From: a virus
DNA length: 22,206 nucleotides
Strand: one strand, 5' to 3'
IMG/VR virus record: IMGVR_UViG_3300044846_000824
Location: 1 to 22,206 of that record
The notes below the pieces were generated by a model. That model was not told where the DNA came from. It searched no databases and saw only the letters and a list, made by a program, of their open reading frames with translations. The position numbers and the translations under genes were made by a program. This document shows, piece by piece, positions 558 through 8,884 of this stretch. The first letter of the stretch is position 1. Every line of letters starts with the position of its first letter.

Positions 558-2357
558 CTATAGTGTCACTAATCTTACAACCATTAAGCCTTCAAAGCCA
601 GTTTGATTGTCCGACCAGTCATCTGGTGAGTATTCGTATGCTTCTAAACGTACACGGCGTGAAGTTTTACCTTCTACATAACTAACAGGCCGTTTTGTTT
701 CCCATATTTCTTGTAAAAATAATAGTTCTTTGTCGGTGTCTAAAGACATTAGTTGCCCTTGTGAATCGTTAACAATAGTTTTACTATACAAAAGTATAGG
801 AATTATATATTGTTCTACTGGTGGAGCAATGGGGAATGACCGCAATCTCCAGCGTTCAAATGTAGGGGTGGATGTGCCTGGGCCAGCAAGTTCTACACGG
901 ACTTGGAACCAGTCGCCTTGTTCACCATCTAATTGGACGATAATACGAGTATTGTTGGGTACGCTATTTCCTGCACTGTTTAGAAGTAAAGCCTGGTCAT
1001 CATATATTTTTACTGTTACAGATTGATTAGCCGCTAATGGTTGGAATGTTGCGTTTAGGTCTGTTACTGATTTGCGTTCTACCGTGCCGTAATAAATATG
1101 TCCTGAAAAAATATGACCGCTAGTTACATACCCTGTAGTTGATTCAACATATACGCCAACAGTAGGGACACCCAGTACTGTGCGACCATTAAAACGAGCA
1201 ACAGTAGTACACGAGCTTGCGGTATCGGCATACACATCCGTCGCAAAGGCAGGCTGCATAGGACGAGGAGTGTTAGAAAGATCAAGACGACCAGCTCCTG
1301 ATTTGTTTGTATCGATTGATTGCCAGTTGAACCATACGTATTGTCCTTCGGCTTGTGCTGAGGTGACTGAGCCTGGTGTGTCAATAAGTGGACCGTAGGT
1401 GAGGCTTCCGTCTGCGCTTACTGTAGCCATTCGGATACCTTTGTTAGTGCAGAATATGACTACGCCAGCGTGGCTGGTGACGTGTTGTATTAGTTCATTG
1501 ATTGATAGGGATACGACTTCTGCACCTTTAACTAGTGTGCCTGTTGAACTAACACTAAAGCCAAAGATTTCTGAGCGTGAGCCTGCATATCCGCCTGCAT
1601 AGATTTTGCTACCTACAGCAAATACTGTGCTGTAAACAAATGATGTTTGGAAGTGTGTATCTACTGTAGTTGCTGTATATGCAGAATCATATGTTTTAAG
1701 AACATTTGCAATAGACGCAAAAAGCCGGCCACTAGCAAACCACACACGACTATGAGCAGATGCAACAACACTTGTAGCCGCAGTACCTGAACCAACAGTA
1801 TATAAAGCAACAGAAGTAGCCACATAAACAGTTACACCATCTGTAGCAATATCACGGATAGTTCCACTAATACCAGTAATAGTGTCCCATGAACTAAAAG
1901 TAGAAGTACGTTTAAGCGATGCCCCGTCGGAAGCATAAAGAAAAGTATCAGTTGGACACAACAAACTTACAGAACCAGTAAAAGACCCATCAGAAAAAGA
2001 CGTAGATCGAAGAAGCGACAACTCGCCCTCTTCCCACACATTAATACCAACACTTGAGTCAAACCGACTCACGTTCCTATCATCGCCAAGATCCATAATA
2101 TATTGGCCAGCACCACTAAACCAGTTATAACGATAACGCCACCAAGCACCATCAGTGTTAAACAACGAATCGTCAACCTGACCCGTAGAAACAACAGCAT
2201 CACGCAAAGAAGTAAGCGACGACCGCTTATAGTTCTTTACATCAATCGGATATGTACGCCCATCAATTTTAATAGTAAACGGAATAGCCGTATCATTAGT
2301 AGATGAACCAATATAAAAAGGGTAAGAACCTAAACCGAGAAGAGGACTAAAACTCAT
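558..2357 (-). CDS. Tail nozzle / tail tubular protein B-like beta-propeller protein (599 aa)
   Basis: The protein is rich in Ser, Thr, Val and Gly, with repeated short beta-strand blocks such as GVTVYVATS, HSRVWFASGRLFAS and GVVIFCTNKGIRM, each about 40-60 residues apart, as in a beta-propeller. This fits a podoviral tail nozzle (T7 gp12 role), which extends the portal-adaptor channel outward. The frame can be read back to a TTG at 2381, but the better start is the ATG at 2357-2355: it overlaps the adaptor stop as ATGA and has a GAGG site at 2363-2366 with five-base spacing. It lies between the adaptor and fibre genes, which supports the assignment. I did not recognise a specific family from sequence alone, so the nozzle call rests on fold-like repeats and gene order. 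Confidence 0.65.
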   Translation of the reverse strand: MSFSPLLGLGSYPFYIGSSTNDTAIPFTIKIDGRTYPIDVKNYKRSSLTSLRDAVVSTGQVDDSLFNTDGAWWRYRYNWFSGAGQYIMDLGDDRNVSRFDSSVGINVWEEGELSLLRSTSFSDGSFTGSVSLLCPTDTFLYASDGASLKRTSTFSSWDTITGISGTIRDIATDGVTVYVATSVALYTVGSGTAATSVVASAHSRVWFASGRLFASIANVLKTYDSAYTATTVDTHFQTSFVYSTVFAVGSKIYAGGYAGSRSEIFGFSVSSTGTLVKGAEVVSLSINELIQHVTSHAGVVIFCTNKGIRMATVSADGSLTYGPLIDTPGSVTSAQAEGQYVWFNWQSIDTNKSGAGRLDLSNTPRPMQPAFATDVYADTASSCTTVARFNGRTVLGVPTVGVYVESTTGYVTSGHIFSGHIYYGTVERKSVTDLNATFQPLAANQSVTVKIYDDQALLLNSAGNSVPNNTRIIVQLDGEQGDWFQVRVELAGPGTSTPTFERWRLRSFPIAPPVEQYIIPILLYSKTIVNDSQGQLMSLDTDKELLFLQEIWETKRPVSYVEGKTSRRVRLEAYEYSPDDWSDNQTGFEGLMVVRLVTL

Positions 2358-3256
2358 GTAAACCTCAACGGGTACTGCCAACGCAGACGATCTATTTCCT
2401 CAGCCTTTCGACGCACATACAACGGATACAAACGATTAGCTTCATCAGATGCAGTACGAGGAGGAACTTCCTCAGCACGACGAGGAGTGTCCTGAGCCAC
2501 ACGAGCCGACCTACCAGCTTCAGAGTCACCCAACAAACGCCACTTAATACCAAGATCAAGCACATCAAGCATAGAGGGCTTTAAACCAACATCGTCAACA
2601 AGATCAGATGACCAAGAAATAGCTTCCACATCAAGAGGAGCGGCAGCAACAAAATACAATGAACCCATATAAACCGGTGGGAACATACGAAACAGCACAC
2701 CACTAGCAGGACCATTAGTCCAAGTGCCAGGAACACCACGTTGCAAACGACCTGCTACTCGTGCCCAAGAAGTTGTGTCGTCATCAGTCCAGTTGCGACG
2801 AACATCAACCAAACCAAAAATGTTACGCCAAGCAACAGGCAAATGGACTGTTTGTGAACCGTCACTAACAGCCTCAATGCGAGCCATAGTGCGATATAGG
2901 TCAGGACCCCAAGATGTGAGTTCATCAATTAGGGTTTCGTAAATGTGTAGCCCACTAAAACGAGGGTTAATATAAACCTCATCGTTAACGGTGTGTGTTA
3001 AAGCTTCTGAGCCGTTCCAGCCCCGAAGAACTGAAGCAGTTTTGGCAACACGGTCAACTGACATGACACGCATCTCTTCATTAGCAATAGATAAAATTGC
3101 ACCAGAAACTAGTGATGCAGAGAGTTCGTAGGTCAATGTTACTGACGTATCCGTCAAGTCAACATCGGAGGCAAGCGTGTTTACCTCATAACGGAACGAC
3201 GAAGCAAGCTGACGCTTGACTCGCTGGACCGCTGCGCTTACAAGTGTGCGCGACAA
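2354..3256 (-). CDS. Head-tail adaptor / connector protein (300 aa)
   Basis: This protein probably docks on the portal and bridges it to the tail nozzle (T7 gp11 role). The N-terminus is helical and basic (AAVQRVKRQLASSFRYEV). Residues about 27-98 are a beta-rich module with IANEEMRV and VLRGWNGSEALTH, shared with the capsid and fibre proteins. The middle contains a long beta region (about residues 120-215). The C-terminus has charged helices with KWRLLGDSEAGRSAR and RRKAEEIDRLR, a pattern seen in phage adaptor proteins. The start is TTG at 3256-3254 with an AAAGGA site at 3263-3268 and six-base spacing; no ATG lies nearby. It follows the capsid gene after a stem-loop and overlaps the nozzle gene by four bases. 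Confidence 0.65.
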   Translation of the reverse strand: MSRTLVSAAVQRVKRQLASSFRYEVNTLASDVDLTDTSVTLTYELSASLVSGAILSIANEEMRVMSVDRVAKTASVLRGWNGSEALTHTVNDEVYINPRFSGLHIYETLIDELTSWGPDLYRTMARIEAVSDGSQTVHLPVAWRNIFGLVDVRRNWTDDDTTSWARVAGRLQRGVPGTWTNGPASGVLFRMFPPVYMGSLYFVAAAPLDVEAISWSSDLVDDVGLKPSMLDVLDLGIKWRLLGDSEAGRSARVAQDTPRRAEEVPPRTASDEANRLYPLYVRRKAEEIDRLRWQYPLRFT

Positions 3257-3330: not shown

Positions 3331-4497
3331 TCAGACTAAGGTTCCGGCAGTGGGGAACGCTGCGGTGAGATCCAAGCCAGTGAACTTGGCCATATGGTCT
3401 TGTCCCTTGATTTGGAATCCGCATTCTCCGACCATCATGTATGAATCCGTGTCGTTGGTCTTAGCCAACTTCTGAGCCACGAGAGGCTGGAATACACGCT
3501 GGATGAAGTTGTCACGGCTGTAACAGAATGCGTCGGTCTTACGGACGTAACGGTTACGGACCAAGGTGACTTCACCAAATTCGGTCATGACGGTCTGTGC
3601 ACGGCGACGACCACGGCGAGCATCTTCAACCGTTACGGTCTGGACTCGCTCGTTGCCAACGGTGTTGTTTAGTGCACGGAATGCAGCAGGACGGGCGGTA
3701 ATGAAGTCAAACATACCGCCGTTGTCGTATGCGGTCTGCTGGAGTGCTTCGATTGCACCAACGGTAATCCAGTCTGAGGACGAGTCAATGTTGCTGGTGA
3801 TGTACGAGTTCAAACCACCAGTTGAGCGGACACGAGTTGCCGTATCTTCGTACTTGATACCGTACAAAGCAGCCTGTTCAATGCCGACATTGCAGTGAAG
3901 CATTGCGTTGCGCATTTGCTTGTTCAATTCGTTTGGCACACCGTACTTCGGGATGCTCTGCTCGGTACGTGACACGGTGAGCTTCTTGGAGAAGATCTGC
4001 GTGTAGTTGGAGTACTTGTCACGGCCTTGGAAGTTTGCCGTTCCAATGTCACCTTCTGGCAGTACGGTTCCAAGACCAATAATTTCTGCTCCTGAAGTGT
4101 GGCTGGCTGCGGTTGAACCAAGAGCACCACGAGTAACAGTCAAGACTTCAGTTGAGGTATCAACTGCGGTTACCTTGAAGATTTCGTCGTCAATGCGGAT
4201 GGCGTCGCCAACAGCAAACTTGACTGCATCGCCTGCAACAACATCAACACCAGTTTCGCTGCTATCAAGTGCTTCGTTAAGAACGCCACGGGGCAACGGT
4301 ACATCTTCTTCCATCCAGTAGAAAACGGTGTTGTCAACTGGAGCCTTACCAATTACACCAAGTCCATCTGAACCGATGCCTGAAAGCAACGGAAGATCTT
4401 CTGGGGTAAGGATGTAGATCAATTCATCAATATTGATCTTAGTTTCGACCTGGAGGTCATATGAATAAAAGTTTGGGCCAACAAGTTCTTGTGCCAT
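3331..4497 (-). CDS. Major capsid protein, SU10/DUF5309-like (388 aa)
   Basis: This is the main shell protein. Features resembling the SU10/DUF5309 type are an early TPEDLPLLSGIG segment (31-42), then an aromatic FYWMEEDV strand (59-66), a NYTQIFSKKLTVSRTEQSIPKYG block after residue 160, and a late basic arm with VEDARRGRRRAQTV. Between residues about 72 and 145 a beta-rich module (IDDEIFKV, then VTRGALGSTAASH) is inserted, as a surface or decoration-like domain; the same module occurs in the adaptor and fibre. The ATG start has an AAAGGA site at 4507-4512 overlapping the previous gene's stop region. It follows scaffold and a 96-residue gene and precedes a strong stem-loop. The sequence is more GC-rich than the ejection-protein block. 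Family naming is from memory of conserved patterns, not from a search. Confidence 0.85.
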   Translation of the reverse strand: MAQELVGPNFYSYDLQVETKINIDELIYILTPEDLPLLSGIGSDGLGVIGKAPVDNTVFYWMEEDVPLPRGVLNEALDSSETGVDVVAGDAVKFAVGDAIRIDDEIFKVTAVDTSTEVLTVTRGALGSTAASHTSGAEIIGLGTVLPEGDIGTANFQGRDKYSNYTQIFSKKLTVSRTEQSIPKYGVPNELNKQMRNAMLHCNVGIEQAALYGIKYEDTATRVRSTGGLNSYITSNIDSSSDWITVGAIEALQQTAYDNGGMFDFITARPAAFRALNNTVGNERVQTVTVEDARRGRRRAQTVMTEFGEVTLVRNRYVRKTDAFCYSRDNFIQRVFQPLVAQKLAKTNDTDSYMMVGECGFQIKGQDHMAKFTGLDLTAAFPTAGTLV

Positions 4498-4795: not shown

Positions 4796-5329
4796 CTACC
4801 GATCAAATCGGTGTCCGATTGAACGAGCATTAGATGCCCAATCATTCGGGTCAAAGATTGCACGCTTGTCACCAGATGCTGCTGCCACTAAAACACGGTC
4901 AATTGCTGCAAGTCCGGCATCATCCAAAGTTGTTCCCTTTTGACGGGCTTCATGAAAAAGATCATAAGCTTCGTCATATGGATCACGCTCTGGCATTTCC
5001 GAAGGTGTACCAATATTACCCTTAGCAAAGGTTTGACGGAAGTCCTGCTGTCCTCGTTCCTCGGGTTGAATCTCGTTACTTCGTGGTGCTTCTACACCAT
5101 TAAGTCCAAGATCGGATGCTTCGGTCTTGAGTGAATCAAGATCTTCGCCGTCCCAAGTCTTAAACAATAACTTGCCAATTTTGCTAGTTGTATCAATACC
5201 AGCCTTTGCAAACAACAGTTCCCGCTTCATTTCAGCCAACTCATTTTGAGCTTGCTTTCCTGCTTCGGCTGCCTTACGCAACGACTTAATATCGTGTTGT
5301 TCTTCAGTGATTTCAATATCTTCTGACAT
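4796..5329 (-). CDS. Capsid scaffold protein (177 aa)
   Basis: The protein is acidic and largely helical: the first 45 residues form a charged, probable coiled-coil helix (DIKSLRKAAEAGKQAQNELAE), followed by an AKAGIDTTSKIGKLLFKTWDG segment often seen in phage scaffold proteins. The C-terminal third is more compact and ends with a basic tail (SIGHRFDR), where scaffolds commonly contact the capsid protein. Size, charge and the place just before the capsid gene all fit a scaffold that shapes the procapsid and leaves before DNA packaging. The ATG has an AAGGGA site about ten bases upstream. It is the first clear gene after the promoter-like region. Confidence 0.8.
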   Translation of the reverse strand: MSEDIEITEEQHDIKSLRKAAEAGKQAQNELAEMKRELLFAKAGIDTTSKIGKLLFKTWDGEDLDSLKTEASDLGLNGVEAPRSNEIQPEERGQQDFRQTFAKGNIGTPSEMPERDPYDEAYDLFHEARQKGTTLDDAGLAAIDRVLVAAASGDKRAIFDPNDWASNARSIGHRFDR

Positions 5330-5372
5330 TTGTGTTTCCCTTCAATGGTTTTTTGTCAACAGCCGACTCGAC

Positions 5373-5459
5373 TTACACCCACATTGCGGCGACTTTGTGA
5401 GGATTAATTTGACGGCCACCTAAGTAGCACACATCTATAGGGCCACTTGCGTAGCTCAC
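5373..5459 (-). CDS. Candidate small peptide with GTG start (28 aa), uncertain
   Basis: From GTG at 5459-5457 a frame runs to TAA at 5375-5373. The product contains SYASGP, then CYLGGRQINPHKVAAMWV at its end, which looks more protein-like than random sequence. No Shine-Dalgarno site precedes it. However, its start lies about seven bases after the expected transcription start of the promoter at 5473-5499, so near-leaderless translation is possible. The internal similarity of SYASG and CYLGG comes from the direct repeat in the DNA. It competes with a 19-residue ATG frame (5404-5463) in another phase. Either could be chance. Confidence 0.3.
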   Translation of the reverse strand: MSYASGPIDVCYLGGRQINPHKVAAMWV

Positions 5460-5472
5460 CCATATAACTAAA

Positions 5473-5499
5473 AGTATATCATATAGTCGGTACTGTCAA
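5473..5499 (-). promoter_or_regulatory. Sigma70-type promoter with extended -10, before scaffold-capsid unit
   Basis: In transcribed orientation the sequence has a perfect TTGACA -35 box (5494-5499) and TATACT -10 box (5473-5478), preceded by TGA, which makes an extended -10 (TGn). The spacer is 15 bases, shorter than the usual 17; the extended -10 can compensate. It starts just five bases after the stop of the 95-residue gene and faces the scaffold, 96-residue and capsid genes. It probably raises expression of the capsid unit above the rest of the late operon. Confidence 0.65.
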
Positions 5500-5504
5500 G
5501 TACC

Positions 5505-5792
5505 CTACCATTTAACTTTGTCAGCCCAATATGCGGCTGACATTTTTCCTTTGGAAATATTAGAGGCATGTCGTGCTTTAAATGATTTGCGACGTGCAGC
5601 ATATGAAGCAGATTCACCAGCTTTTTTAGGTGAACCGCTTACACCTTGTTGTCCAAACCGAATAGTTTTAACTTGTTCGCCTTGTTTGGCTACAACAACA
5701 TGAGACTTTTTAGGATGGTCCGGGGTACGTTTGGGCTGGTTGAACCCTGAAACACCAGCACGACTCAACCTAGGATCTTTTTTAGAAGCCAT
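5505..5792 (-). CDS. Small basic conserved phage protein (95 aa)
   Basis: This is a Lys/Arg-rich protein of unknown function. Recognisable blocks are KDPRLSRAGVSGFNQPKRTP (5-24), HVVVAKQGEQVKTIRFGQQG (31-50) and the C-terminal KSFKARHASNISKGKMSAAY (69-88) followed by a Trp-containing end. I recall very similar proteins in many environmental phages, where they are annotated as hypothetical. The ATG overlaps the previous stop by one base (TAATG), so translation is coupled. It is the last of five basic genes and ends just before the promoter-like region. A virion-associated, nucleic-acid-contacting role is possible from charge, but nothing in the sequence proves it. Confidence 0.8.
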   Translation of the reverse strand: MASKKDPRLSRAGVSGFNQPKRTPDHPKKSHVVVAKQGEQVKTIRFGQQGVSGSPKKAGESASYAARRKSFKARHASNISKGKMSAAYWADKVKW

Positions 5793-6196
5793 TACTTTTT
5801 ACCCCTAGCGGTTTTACTAGCCTTTTTGGCGGCAGAAGTATTAGGAACAAACTGTTTGCCCTTACTTGTGCCTTCACGTTTTGCTTTAGTAGTAGCAGCA
5901 TACTGCGAAGAAGTCAAAGACTCAATAGCCTTCTTAGGCAGATACCGTTCACCAGTAGCCTTAGGCCCCTGCGTAGATGGTTTGCCTGACTTAGTAGTCC
6001 ACTTTTCTTTAGTCCACTTAGACAAATCTTTTTGAGCAGACGTTTTCTCACCACTATAACCACCGCCAGCAGCTTTATACTTTTGTCCTGCTAGTTGTGC
6101 TTTTCGAGCGGACCATTGCCCAGGCTTGCCACCTGACGAGGAGGCTTTTACTTGGGCAACAATCCGCTTTCTAAGTTCAGGTTTAGTGTATGCCAT
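5792..6196 (-). CDS. DUF5872-like basic protein (134 aa)
   Basis: Three blocks match what I remember of DUF5872: RKRIVAQVKASSSGGKPGQW (9-28), DLSKWTKEKWTTKSGK (57-72), and GERYLPKKAIESL then SSQYAATTKAKR (82-107). The C-terminus is a Lys/Ala/Ser tail. This family occurs in bacteria, phages and large eukaryotic viruses and has no established function to my knowledge. The open frame extends back to 6427, but the start at ATG 6196-6194 is chosen because it lies one base after the previous stop and the protein similarity begins there. It ends with a TAATG overlap into the 95-residue gene. A DNA-contacting virion role is inferred only from the strong positive charge. Confidence 0.75.
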   Translation of the reverse strand: MAYTKPELRKRIVAQVKASSSGGKPGQWSARKAQLAGQKYKAAGGGYSGEKTSAQKDLSKWTKEKWTTKSGKPSTQGPKATGERYLPKKAIESLTSSQYAATTKAKREGTSKGKQFVPNTSAAKKASKTARGKK

Positions 6197-6197
6197 T

Positions 6198-6671
6198 TTA
6201 CATTGTTCGAGGAAGTTTTGGTTTACTGCCACCACCACGAACAGGACGAGGAGTTGGCTTCTTTCGTTTATCGCCTCGTGGTTGCATAGCTTCTCTAGGA
6301 TCACGCTTAGACTCAACCTTAGCAAGTCGCCCACCTTGAGGTCTGCTTCCACCAGGACCACGAACAGGTCGCTTAGCAGGCGCAGGTTTTGAACTAGCAA
6401 AGGATCCCGCAGGAGCACCGCCACCACTAGTTACAGAATTAACAATCTTGCCAGCAAGACCAGCAAGACCACTAGCAGCACCAACAACAGTCCTAACACC
6501 GCTACCAGCAGTATTAATATAAGCAGAAGCAGCCTTTATAAGTTGATCTTCTGGACGACCAAAACCGCCACTCTTAGGCTTTGGACCTGCTTTACCATCC
6601 TTACGAGGACCCGAAGGCTTAACAGGTGGCTTGGGAATAGGACGAGGAGGAACACGCTTTTTAGCAGCCAT
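6198..6671 (-). CDS. Pro/Gly/Lys-rich basic protein with Gly-zipper segment (157 aa)
   Basis: Both ends are disordered-looking and rich in Pro, Lys, Arg and Gly (PPRPIPKPPVKPSGPRKDGK near the start; KRKKPTPRPVRGGGSK near the end). Residues about 47-80 form one non-polar helix of small residues (TVVGAASGLAGLAGKIV), with a Gly-zipper pattern that could insert into or span a membrane, or pack helix to helix. I recognise no family. The ATG overlaps the 37-residue gene stop by one base (TAATG). It sits among four other basic small genes after the ejection proteins, so an internal virion or ejected role is possible, but this is a guess. Confidence 0.7.
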   Translation of the reverse strand: MAAKKRVPPRPIPKPPVKPSGPRKDGKAGPKPKSGGFGRPEDQLIKAASAYINTAGSGVRTVVGAASGLAGLAGKIVNSVTSGGGAPAGSFASSKPAPAKRPVRGPGGSRPQGGRLAKVESKRDPREAMQPRGDKRKKPTPRPVRGGGSKPKLPRTM

Positions 6672-6784
6672 TATTTTTTACCCATCTTTTTTTTGGGTTT
6701 AGCCTTAACTTTCATAGCGGCTTTCTTAGCCGCAGCCATACCTTCTTTAGTATACGGAAACTTCTTACCACCAACATTAGGCAT
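6671..6784 (-). CDS. Very short Lys-rich protein (37 aa)
   Basis: ATG at 6784-6782 opens a 37-codon frame. The product begins MPNVGGKKFPYTKEGMAAAK and continues as a Lys/Ala/Pro tail; 13 of 37 residues are Lys. The start MPxVGGKKFPYT is a motif I recall from many environmental phage mini-proteins of unknown function. It lies two bases after the 87-residue gene stop and overlaps the next start by one base (TAATG), which strongly supports it being real despite its size. It may be a DNA-binding or structural virion peptide. Confidence 0.75.
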   Translation of the reverse strand: MPNVGGKKFPYTKEGMAAAKKAAMKVKAKPKKKMGKK

Positions 6785-6786
6785 AA

Positions 6787-7050
6787 TTACTTCTTTCCAC
6801 GGTTACGTGCCCGATTACTCGAAACACTTTCTTTAACTAACTTACCATCTTTAGTATGTGACAAGTCAAGACCCCCCTTGCCCATCATACCCTTAGCACG
6901 ACGAGCCTTAGCAAGTTCCCTACGCTTAGCCATCTGCTCCGCTTTAGCATTAAAAACAGTATCAGTTTTAGCTTTAACTTTACGAGCATCAGGGTTGGCC
7001 TGATAGAATCTGGCAGTTTTGCGAGGGTTGACGACAGGTTTAGGAGCCAT
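6787..7050 (-). CDS. Basic protein with DxSH...NRxRN signature (87 aa)
   Basis: The protein has 25 Lys/Arg in 87 residues. The middle is a basic helix (AKAEQMAKRRELAKARRAKG, 35-54). The C-terminus contains DLSHTKDG (62-69) and NRARNRGKK (79-87). Proteins with this D-x-S-H then N-R-x-R-N arrangement are common in marine and freshwater phages as hypothetical proteins; the spacing recalls part of an HNH fold, but no full catalytic set is visible, so I do not call it a nuclease. The ATG overlaps the preceding stop as TGATG. It is the first of the five basic genes. Confidence 0.75.
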   Translation of the reverse strand: MAPKPVVNPRKTARFYQANPDARKVKAKTDTVFNAKAEQMAKRRELAKARRAKGMMGKGGLDLSHTKDGKLVKESVSSNRARNRGKK

Positions 7051-7913
7051 CAGCGTTGCGTTCCTAAACCAGTAGTGCCAGACTGCCCAACAAACGCTCC
7101 GCTAGCAGCATCACGTTGTTTTAATTGACGACCCATTAACCGATCTTCTAATGTTTTATTAGCTTCAACATTACCCATAGCCCCAGCTTCAAAAGCAACA
7201 TCAGAACCAATAGGTTGACCAGCCTCTCCAAACGTACTAGAAGTTAAACCCTGCAAAGAAGCAACCTGTTGAATATCTTGTTGCGACTGACTAACCGAAC
7301 GACCCAACTCAGCATAACTTTCAGCCTGTTGCTTACTAACCGTCACATTCTGTTTAGCACCAAAACCGGCAATAGCAGCAGCACGAGTAGCTTTGTCTAG
7401 TTGAGCCAAAGTCTTTTCAGGGTCTAATACAGCAGCAACTAAAGCACCATCAGTTGAGTCACCATAGAACTGTTGAAACATGTCTTTAACTTCAGTTGGC
7501 AAAGATTTAACAATAGCATATGATGAAGTAATACGATCAGCAATTTGATTAATGGTTAGATTGCGACGAATAGCATCATGGGCGTCAGTGTATGAATCAT
7601 AAAACCATGAAGGTACACCAGCCGTAGACATGGTTTGTATGTACTCAGATTCATATTTTAAAACATCGGACACTGTAGGAACAACAACATTCTCACCTTT
7701 AGCCTGGCGATCACGCATATCAAAAATAACTTTGTAGCGTTGCTGAAAAACTGGGGTCTGTTCCAAAGACTGCAAAATGCCCGCTTCGGAATCATTGCCA
7801 TTAATCATCTGGTCATACAACCAACCACTTGGCGTACCATCAGCAGCAACACTAAATAACGAACCTAAACCTAACTGACTTAAATATGCTGCAAGTGTTG
7901 CAAAATTTTCCAT
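7050..7913 (-). CDS. Putative internal virion / ejection protein (287 aa)
   Basis: No family is recognised. The first 25 residues are non-polar (LAAYLSQLGLGSLFSVAADG), then the protein is mostly helical, with an Ala/Gln-rich helix region (about 175-225: AELGRSVSQSQQDIQQVASL) and a Gly/Ser/Thr-rich, basic C-terminus. The gene is coupled to both neighbours through TGATG overlaps. It follows the 2420-, 460- and 323-residue genes in one unbroken run, so an ejection-protein role (comparable to the small T7 core protein) is a positional inference. Confidence 0.65.
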   Translation of the reverse strand: MENFATLAAYLSQLGLGSLFSVAADGTPSGWLYDQMINGNDSEAGILQSLEQTPVFQQRYKVIFDMRDRQAKGENVVVPTVSDVLKYESEYIQTMSTAGVPSWFYDSYTDAHDAIRRNLTINQIADRITSSYAIVKSLPTEVKDMFQQFYGDSTDGALVAAVLDPEKTLAQLDKATRAAAIAGFGAKQNVTVSKQQAESYAELGRSVSQSQQDIQQVASLQGLTSSTFGEAGQPIGSDVAFEAGAMGNVEANKTLEDRLMGRQLKQRDAASGAFVGQSGTTGLGTQR

Positions 7914-8884
7914 CAGAACACGCTCCTACCAAATATTTTAGACAACATACCAGCCATTTGAGAACCCATCTGTTTAGCCTCAGAACTTTTAGCCCAACGA
8001 GTATCAGTACGAATATTTTTTTGTAGTTCGTTATTGTTGGCTAACCGCATACCAGACTTAGGGTCATCAACTGTAACCATTTTAAGATACTGATTATTGC
8101 TAAAATCTACTTCGGCAGGATTAAGACCCAAACTTTCAGAAATCTTGTTGCGTGAAGCGGCCAACATGTCTAAAGGATTAATGCCCGAATCAATAGTTGC
8201 GGTAAGCCAAGGATTTAAAGTTTTTGCTTGTTGAGCAATAATAGATTTAACAGTATCAGCAGTCATCGAATTGTTTGCTACACGGGTGGCCCAATCTTGA
8301 GCAGTTTTATCGTCAACATTAACTAAATAGTTTTTGCCTAAGTCTTTAAACTGTTGAACATTGGTAGTTAAATCACCATCTTGTAAGTTAGACCAATCGG
8401 TCATGCCAGTAAGAGTTGTTGTTAATTGTTCTTGAGAAAAACCTTGTTTCTCAGCAACAGTAGCAATATAAACAACAGTATCGTTATTTAACGTAATACC
8501 AAGTCGTTTAGATTCATTAGCAACAGTAACCGCAAGCGAGTTAATATCGTATTGGCGTTGTTCAGCAGACTTACCGCCACCACCGCCACCACCACCGCCA
8601 CCAAATACTGAAATAGGAATACCAAATTTATTTCCAATTCTCCACATATCAGCACGGTCAAGATCTGCGCTACCTTCACGACCCCAAATAAGATCAGTGG
8701 CATAATCTACAGCCCCTTTTATATTGCGTAATTTGGGGAGTTCGTTATAAACATCTAATTGAGCAGCAAACCATGCTGGATGTTGTAATCTAAAAACACC
8801 AAAAGCATCTTTAGAATAAACCTGTCCTACTTCGTAAGGATTATCTCTAGGTTCTCTATTTGATTGAACAAAATTGTCACTCAT
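7913..8884 (-). CDS. Putative ejection protein with ten-Gly linker (323 aa)
   Basis: The protein has two parts joined by ten consecutive Gly (residues 95-104). The N-terminal part has FGVFRLQHPAWFAAQLDVYN (28-47). The C-terminal part is helical and ends with NELQKNIRTDTRWAKSSEAK (about 284-303) followed by a non-polar helix to FG; this terminal pattern of a helix, D-x-R-W and then a final FG motif recalls other phage internal proteins I have seen. No enzyme motif is visible. It starts six bases after the 460-residue gene and ends in a TGATG overlap. The ejection role is inferred from context. Confidence 0.65.
   Translation of the reverse strand: MSDNFVQSNREPRDNPYEVGQVYSKDAFGVFRLQHPAWFAAQLDVYNELPKLRNIKGAVDYATDLIWGREGSADLDRADMWRIGNKFGIPISVFGGGGGGGGGGKSAEQRQYDINSLAVTVANESKRLGITLNNDTVVYIATVAEKQGFSQEQLTTTLTGMTDWSNLQDGDLTTNVQQFKDLGKNYLVNVDDKTAQDWATRVANNSMTADTVKSIIAQQAKTLNPWLTATIDSGINPLDMLAASRNKISESLGLNPAEVDFSNNQYLKMVTVDDPKSGMRLANNNELQKNIRTDTRWAKSSEAKQMGSQMAGMLSKIFGRSVF
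8573..8602 (-). repeat. GGT/GGC microsatellite encoding a ten-Gly linker
   Basis: Ten consecutive Gly codons are all GGT or GGC (three GGC among seven GGT), making a near-perfect trinucleotide repeat inside the 323-residue gene. Such tracts can change in length by replication slippage in steps of one residue without breaking the frame. It separates two differently composed protein parts. Confidence 0.95.

Follow-up and report, generated by a model that had tools for sequence, protein, structure and literature searches.

The window that we analysed, a 22,206-nucleotide stretch of viral DNA, contains a run of five small and strongly basic genes on its minus strand, between the genes for presumed ejection proteins and a presumed scaffold gene. 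In close relatives, the first and last genes of the run (A and E) are constant, and the genes between them vary while remaining basic. We propose that this slot encodes small proteins of the head interior, which would be made together with the scaffold and the coat, would meet the DNA by their charge, and would perhaps leave the head along with it. This is a tentative reading, to which we assign a probability of about 0.4.

A basic gene run with constant ends

On the minus strand of the window, the terminase and portal genes are followed by the gene for a 2,420-amino-acid protein, by g460, g323, and g287, and then by the basic run (Table 1). After the run come an acidic gene, a 96-amino-acid gene, the coat protein gene, and the tail genes. 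We presume that the acidic protein is the scaffold because its gene precedes that of the coat protein; it had no family match in our profile search. A preliminary description of this DNA had reported five consecutive small basic genes in the head and ejection region, and both the run and its place between g287 and the presumed scaffold are borne out: all five are intact open reading frames, with the joints and the lysine and arginine counts that were described. The run was placed at 5787-7050, however, which leaves out nearly all of the fifth gene; the correct interval is 5505-7050. The genes are tightly packed. There are 1-base overlaps between g287 and A, between B and C, and between D and E, while A and B are separated by 2 bases and C and D by 1 base. 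Flanking proteins (g460, g323, g287, and the scaffold) have isoelectric points of 4.7-5.4, versus 10.5-11.9 within the run.

Table 1. The basic cassette and its surroundings, in order along the minus strand (positions are those of the window).
Feature	Positions	Strand	Length	pI	Lys+Arg	Remarks
g287	7050..7913	-				Presumed internal/ejection protein before the cassette; phrog_8424 (family without assigned function)
A87	6787..7050	-	87 aa	11.3	25/87	phrog_6437 family; always first in the slot; homologous to Syn5 gp50
B37	6671..6784	-	37 aa	10.6	13/37	Weak phrog_33179 match; variable interior gene
C157	6198..6671	-	157 aa	11.9	35/157	Rich in Pro, Lys, Arg, and Gly; short hydrophobic middle
D134	5792..6196	-	134 aa	10.5	32/134	phrog_17747 (N part) fused to phrog_14910 (C part)
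E95	5505..5792	-	95 aa	11.0	22/95	phrog_7595; constant last gene of the slot
Non-coding gap	5330..5504	-	175 nt			Separates E95 from the scaffold gene; conserved across the four relatives
Presumed scaffold gene	4796..5329	-	177 aa			Acidic; directly after the cassette
Major capsid protein	3331..4497	-				phrog_1328 major head protein, 8e-45

Two features of the surrounding proteins are worth recording. The presumed ejection protein g323 (7913-8884) contains a run of ten glycines. The coat protein (3331-4497) has an extra domain of about 70 residues (residues 73-139), which is also found in a neighbouring 300-amino-acid protein (2354-3256; residues 28-94, 28% identity, E = 1e-4) and also matches tail-protein PHROGs (6e-12). 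Judging from these matches, it is a domain common to several virion proteins.

We compared the slot, by which we mean the interval between g287 and the scaffold, across the window and four related contigs: L089 (L093 is the same contig), L090, L091, and L092. The window has A-B-C-D-E and L092 has A and E, with nothing between them. L091 has A, B, an 85-amino-acid gene, and E; L090 has A, a 51-amino-acid gene, C, and E; and L089 has A, a 95-amino-acid gene, a longer, B-like gene of 59 amino acids, genes of 146 and 99 amino acids, and E. A is first and E is last in all five genomes, and the interior differs. The slot genes are nevertheless all basic (21/21 across the five genomes), though many of the middle genes are non-homologous. 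In its C-terminal part the 51-amino-acid gene of L090 matches the B gene of L091, but its N-terminal part is different, which is a sign of shuffling. For C157, we found no family match in profile searches and no relatives in a pattern scan of the viral contig collection; its sole homologue (77-80% identity) is the one in L090, which was reached through A. The preliminary description had supposed a conserved cassette. As one fixed set of five genes it is not conserved, since B, C, and D come and go, but as a type it is: A, D, and E recur, linked to each other, in unrelated phages (see below).

The two ends of the slot also stand out in how they evolve. By simple Nei-Gojobori counts against the four related contigs, dN/dS is 0.05-0.15 for A and 0.06-0.12 for E, as compared to 0.12-0.20 for the coat protein and 0.22-0.60 for g287 and g323. 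(The values for C, 0.47, and B, 0.26, are from one comparison each.) These ratios indicate that A87 and E95 are under strong purifying selection. Against L090 and L091, dS is 1.1-1.3 for g287, but it falls to 0.15-0.24 for A, and it is 0.2-0.5 for E, the scaffold, and the coat protein. This drop at the start of A implies a recombination boundary at the g287/A junction (near 7050), with the cassette travelling with the head genes and not with the ejection genes.

The non-coding stretch that separates E95 from the scaffold gene is strongly conserved. It is found at 12698-12872 in L089, 11249-11423 in L090, 10961-11136 in L091, and 10583-10753 in L092, and its length varies just from 171 to 176 nt across these contigs and the window. 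It carries TTGACA and TATACT, 15 nt apart, and behind them a conserved leader with two similar predicted hairpins (GCUAC....GUGGC) and 8 predicted compensatory pairs, for which nearly all of the changes are in L092. The promoter scan, which demands a spacer of 16-18 nt, did not flag these boxes, and the leader has no match in Rfam. The gap is possibly the promoter of a head operon, with a structured leader.

Families and spread of A, D, and E

E95 belongs to phrog_7595 (2.2e-40, residues 2-95 of 95), which also matches 53/53 of its homologues, and A87 belongs to phrog_6437 (7.8e-22, residues 8-86; 26/26 homologues). We considered whether A87 might be a degenerate HNH nuclease and rejected this: phrog_6437 is the sole family that it matches, it has no Pfam match, and the HNH genes are merely its neighbours. 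B37 matches phrog_33179 at 7e-6. The two halves of D134 match different families, namely phrog_17747 (9.5e-19, residues 3-47) and phrog_14910 (1.3e-22, residues 52-128), and the halves are separate, adjacent genes in L113, L117, L130, and many other phages, so D134 is a fusion, in one gene, of what are two neighbouring proteins elsewhere. In the PHROG library, the families of A, B, D, and E are single proteins without a function; the library does not mention the slot that they share, its constant ends, or the fusions.

E95 scores 12.1 bits against DUF5754, which is below Pfam's gathering cut-off of 27.4, and the best of its homologues has E = 0.0024. None of the 40 E-bearing records reaches the cut-off, which is why we do not file E95 in DUF5754. 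An E-like protein of 96 amino acids from MW202828 scores 42 bits against our profile for E (95.6% in hhalign) and 23.8 bits against DUF5754 (4.6e-5). Through intermediates such as this one, E95 is probably a distant relative of Tlr6f/DUF5754. D134 has a similar relation to DUF5872: residues 8-115 of its 134 match at 23.8 bits (E = 7e-5), short of the cut-off of 27.5, and DUF5872 matches 15/15 of the full-length homologues of D (best 4e-6; the L290 protein scores 26.4 bits). D differs from DUF5872 in that its halves are two genes in many phages. Both DUF5872 and DUF5754 are annotated in the haptophyte virus CpV-BQ1 (PMC12085832). A literature search for DUF6321 returned nothing.

Sequence searches of solved structures with E, D, and A, both as single sequences and as profiles, gave no significant match. 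The phage tail tube initiator family PF23980 weakly matches 26 of the 53 E homologues (best 0.0019), with the PDB chain 9euf_M at E = 0.22. We judged this structure match to be chance, along with matches to chloroplast L24 (0.85) and, for A, an adhesin repeat (0.018). E is predicted to form a hairpin plus helices, with moderate confidence (pLDDT 73); the fold search with this model gave no PDB match with E < 2.8, and in the viral library a few small unnamed proteins stood out, at 43-65% identity. D is predicted to be helical (pLDDT 84.5). Its best PDB alignment has Z = 2.2, and its viral matches are mostly unnamed, along with a 1022-amino-acid, ParB-like phage protein that has the N half in common. 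Conserved residues include G16, P20, T23, P24, H26, G38, G47, R74, H75, S85, W89, and W95 in E; W61, W66, and RYLP in D; and G54, G60, D62, H65, G69, N79, and R80 in A. Together with the predicted models of E and D, the invariant glycine, histidine, tryptophan, and proline residues suggest that A, D, and E are folded domains that make specific contacts rather than protamine-like polycations.

All of our evidence is from sequences, and most of the relatives are metagenomic contigs. IMG/VR scans gave at least 600 matches for E and at least 600 for D, and in the genome collection, E was found in 56 contigs, nearly all of them from metagenome-assembled genomes, which we took to be phage contigs. 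Homologues of E95, mostly 55-76% identical, are found in phages that infect Roseobacter, Synechococcus, Celeribacter, Lentibacter, Vibrio, and other hosts, and the backbones of these phages include P22-like, cobavirus, HMO-2011-type, and siphovirus ones. No isolate has a coat protein that is more than about 28% identical to that of the window. High identity of E across such different coats argues against a phage-specific structural partner.

Homologues of A are found in cyanopodoviruses, including Syn5. S-CRES1 has A-D-E, in the same order as in the window, and other phages have E-A, or E-A and then the two halves of D. In deduplicated sets of loci, each fetched with one query, E lies within 2.5 kb in 7/12 loci fetched with D and in 5/13 fetched with A, and D lies within 2.5 kb in 5/27 loci fetched with E. 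(B37 is too short for a scan of its own; its co-occurrence with E was measured solely in loci fetched with other queries and is hence biased.) We then asked how often small basic genes occur near E homologues, using independently fetched and deduplicated loci and a simple longest-ORF method to call genes. Within 3 positions, 30/149 genes were small and basic, versus 13/177 farther off (odds ratio 3.2, P = 9e-4; per-locus Wilcoxon P = 0.035). This stricter test supersedes one with laxer deduplication, which gave an odds ratio of 8.7. With homologues of A, B, D, and E removed, the enrichment persists (22/141 vs. 11/175, odds ratio 2.8, P = 0.009). Because of this enrichment, the constraint on A and E, and the uniform charge of the slot genes, we do not believe that the basic run is due to chance.

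Three other contigs deserve mention. L163 (6920-10192) has an expanded version of the cassette, a row of about 8-9 small basic genes that begins with an E homologue, includes a D homologue, and ends with an A homologue. In L106 (6071-6991), a 306-amino-acid ORF beside A appears to be a small basic protein, similar to the N half of D, that is split by an intein-like insert. The insert starts with Cys and has a TPDHSW motif; an insert of this type is unusual in so small a protein. L002, which also has E, encodes a further type of small basic protein (MPLKKGYSSKTISGNIK..GKPQKQAVAIALSTA; 5970-6152) that adjoins a P22-like coat gene and is probably another member of the same guild. Apparent fusions of E in L041 and L065 were rejected as upstream read-through, with a low-complexity prefix that is rich in arginine and histidine.

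The E domain in prohead proteases, and further links to the head

With the divergent E domain of L306 as the query, tblastn found Vibrio phage ICP1 and Aeromonas phages. In ICP1 (gene names are as deposited), the order is terL, portal, gp126, gp125, scaffold, decoration, and coat. The E-like domain is at the C-terminal end (residues 187-261) of gp125, which is annotated as the capsid protease and matches Peptidase_S78_2 at residues 37-160 (2e-9). The Aeromonas protein 2L372X_100 has its E-like domain at 78-150 and Peptidase_S78_2 at 176-287 (2e-20), so that the domain lies on the opposite side of the protease from that in gp125. Both genes are within the interval from the portal to the coat. 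In a profile search of 11 proteins, these two scored 34-47 bits against the E profile, and hhalign of the E alignment against gp125 gave 92.5% probability (E = 5e-7). Furthermore, the length of phrog_9979 (278) equals that of gp125, and its match to E falls at positions 188-262, which makes it the probable family of gp125. In short, the gp125-type protease includes an E-like domain of about 75 residues; E95 stands alone, without Peptidase_S78_2, whereas gp125 and 2L372X_100 have both.

Other matches also lead to the head. Of the 53 E homologues, 51 match phrog_220, a family labelled "minor head protein and DNA pilot" (best 1.8e-7), and through L306 the match is at 3.4e-12. L306 itself encodes one 241-amino-acid protein with E and the N and C halves of D in a row, and this gene is directly before an acidic 388-amino-acid gene and a head protein gene (phrog_13704, 7e-114). 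In L293, the C half of D is fused to a 340-amino-acid region; the end of this region matches tape-measure proteins at their own ends (2e-9), and the gene is between the portal and the coat. Portal, coat, scaffold, and endolysin PHROGs all occur among the genes close to E, and A homologues adjoin HNH nucleases and terminase genes. In L107-L109, which have the same type of terminase and portal as the window phage, A is directly before the terminase.

Possible roles

In the model that we prefer, E95, and probably A87 and D134, would be small modules, folded and positively charged, that go into the prohead while it is being assembled and meet the DNA as it is packaged. They may remain on the DNA and be delivered with it into the cell, and the middle genes would be exchangeable accessories in which positive charge is kept more than sequence. 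We propose a location in the head interior because of the fusions of E to proteases, the match to phrog_220, the fusions in L306 and L293, the basic slot, the constraint on A and E, the proximity of A to HNH and terminase genes, and the neighbours of E. Against this, in several isolates E or A adjoins lysis genes instead of head genes, and no solved structure resembles the model of E, which is itself of moderate confidence. In the papers that we read, no virion proteomics turned up for A, D, or E; the cobavirus paper, for one, contains no virion mass spectrometry.

The preliminary description had suggested that the proteins are carried in the capsid and either condense the DNA or target the host nucleoid. 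The fusions of E to prohead proteases and its match to phrog_220 put the first idea on a better footing, at the level of sequence similarity. Nothing in our analysis points to the nucleoid, and condensation is doubtful: the evidence that bears on protamine-like condensation by A-E is their charge, and PMC3281028 states that evidence is lacking for any large share of basic proteins in neutralising phage DNA, which counts against a bulk condensing role.

As an alternative, the basic modules might bind the acidic scaffold, the portal, or the packaging complex while the prohead is assembled or filled and then be lost or degraded, in which case they would neither pack DNA nor be injected. In the window and its relatives, E lies next to the gene for the acidic scaffold, the E-D fusion adjoins an acidic gene that precedes the coat gene in L306, and the protease fusions and the location of A beside terminase and HNH genes fit such a role as well. 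But a protein that is fitted to each phage's scaffold would not be expected to stay well conserved while the coats are unrelated, and E is away from scaffold genes in many phages. We consider a purely assembly-related role to be unlikely, while giving it more weight than the remaining alternatives. The conservation of E regardless of backbone could also reflect a target that is common to many bacteria, and together with the strong positive charge this would suit late-expressed nucleic-acid binders of the cytosol that stay out of the virion and have host DNA, RNA, or ribosomes as their target. This seems quite improbable to us, as the genes lie with late structural genes, the E domain occurs joined to prohead proteases and half of D to a tape-measure-like domain, and the weak ribosomal-protein-like matches are not significant.

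A and E might instead be ordinary cargo in a hot-spot for morons, moved between phages, with no common function and basic by coincidence. The highly variable interior, with its chimeric small genes, and the gene orders that differ by lineage are what such a hot-spot would produce, but it would not account for 21/21 basic genes, the linkage of A, D, and E across lineages, the E-D fusion, or the enrichment of basic genes near E after homologues are removed, and we view it as very improbable. Least probable of all is that the proteins aid a holin, endolysin, or spanin at the envelope. This idea was raised by CRP-9, CRP-810, P12053L, S-EIV1, S-CRES1, and S-CBS2, in which E or A adjoins endolysin, lysozyme, or holin-like genes, and endolysin PHROGs are indeed among E's neighbours. 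It was not upheld by the survey of those neighbours, which include portal, coat, scaffold, and terminase genes too, or by the window, where we recognised no lysis gene near the cassette; and the fusions of E are with prohead proteases and not with lysis enzymes.

Aquatic phages widely carry small basic proteins of this kind, and their annotation goes no further than hypothetical. The protease fusion gives E its first testable location, the prohead interior, and a slot with constant ends and an interchangeable basic middle is a clean natural experiment on whether phages manage their packaged DNA with proteins. Tlr6f is described as conserved in almost every polinton-like virus, as well as in several virophages, many giant viruses, and some phages, and its role as important but unknown (PMC4642659; the family is also treated in PMC12220804). 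Like E95, it is small, widespread among DNA viruses, and without an assigned function, and if the probable link between them holds, then E95 would provide a way into the study of this protein in polinton-like and giant viruses. It is even conceivable, if improbable, that E95/phrog_7595, the accessory domain of S78_2 proteases, and Tlr6f/DUF5754 are one ancient head-interior module that ties genomes to the capsid's interior across unrelated DNA viruses, and which here has become the fixed end of a cassette that is selected for charge.

The internal proteins of phage T4 are basic. IPI, IPII, and IPIII are small, non-essential proteins of the head interior, and if our preferred model is correct, they would be analogous to the cassette proteins in function only. 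About 360 copies of each are in the prohead core (PMC9958956). The cassette proteins are likewise small, basic, and encoded with head genes. The chlorovirus PBCV-1 differs from a cassette-bearing phage in that it infects eukaryotes and has a low density of DNA (PMC3281028). As in the cassette, though, several proteins of high isoelectric point, which are DNA-associated virion proteins, are encoded by this DNA virus, and they are proposed to organise its packaged DNA (PMC3281028).
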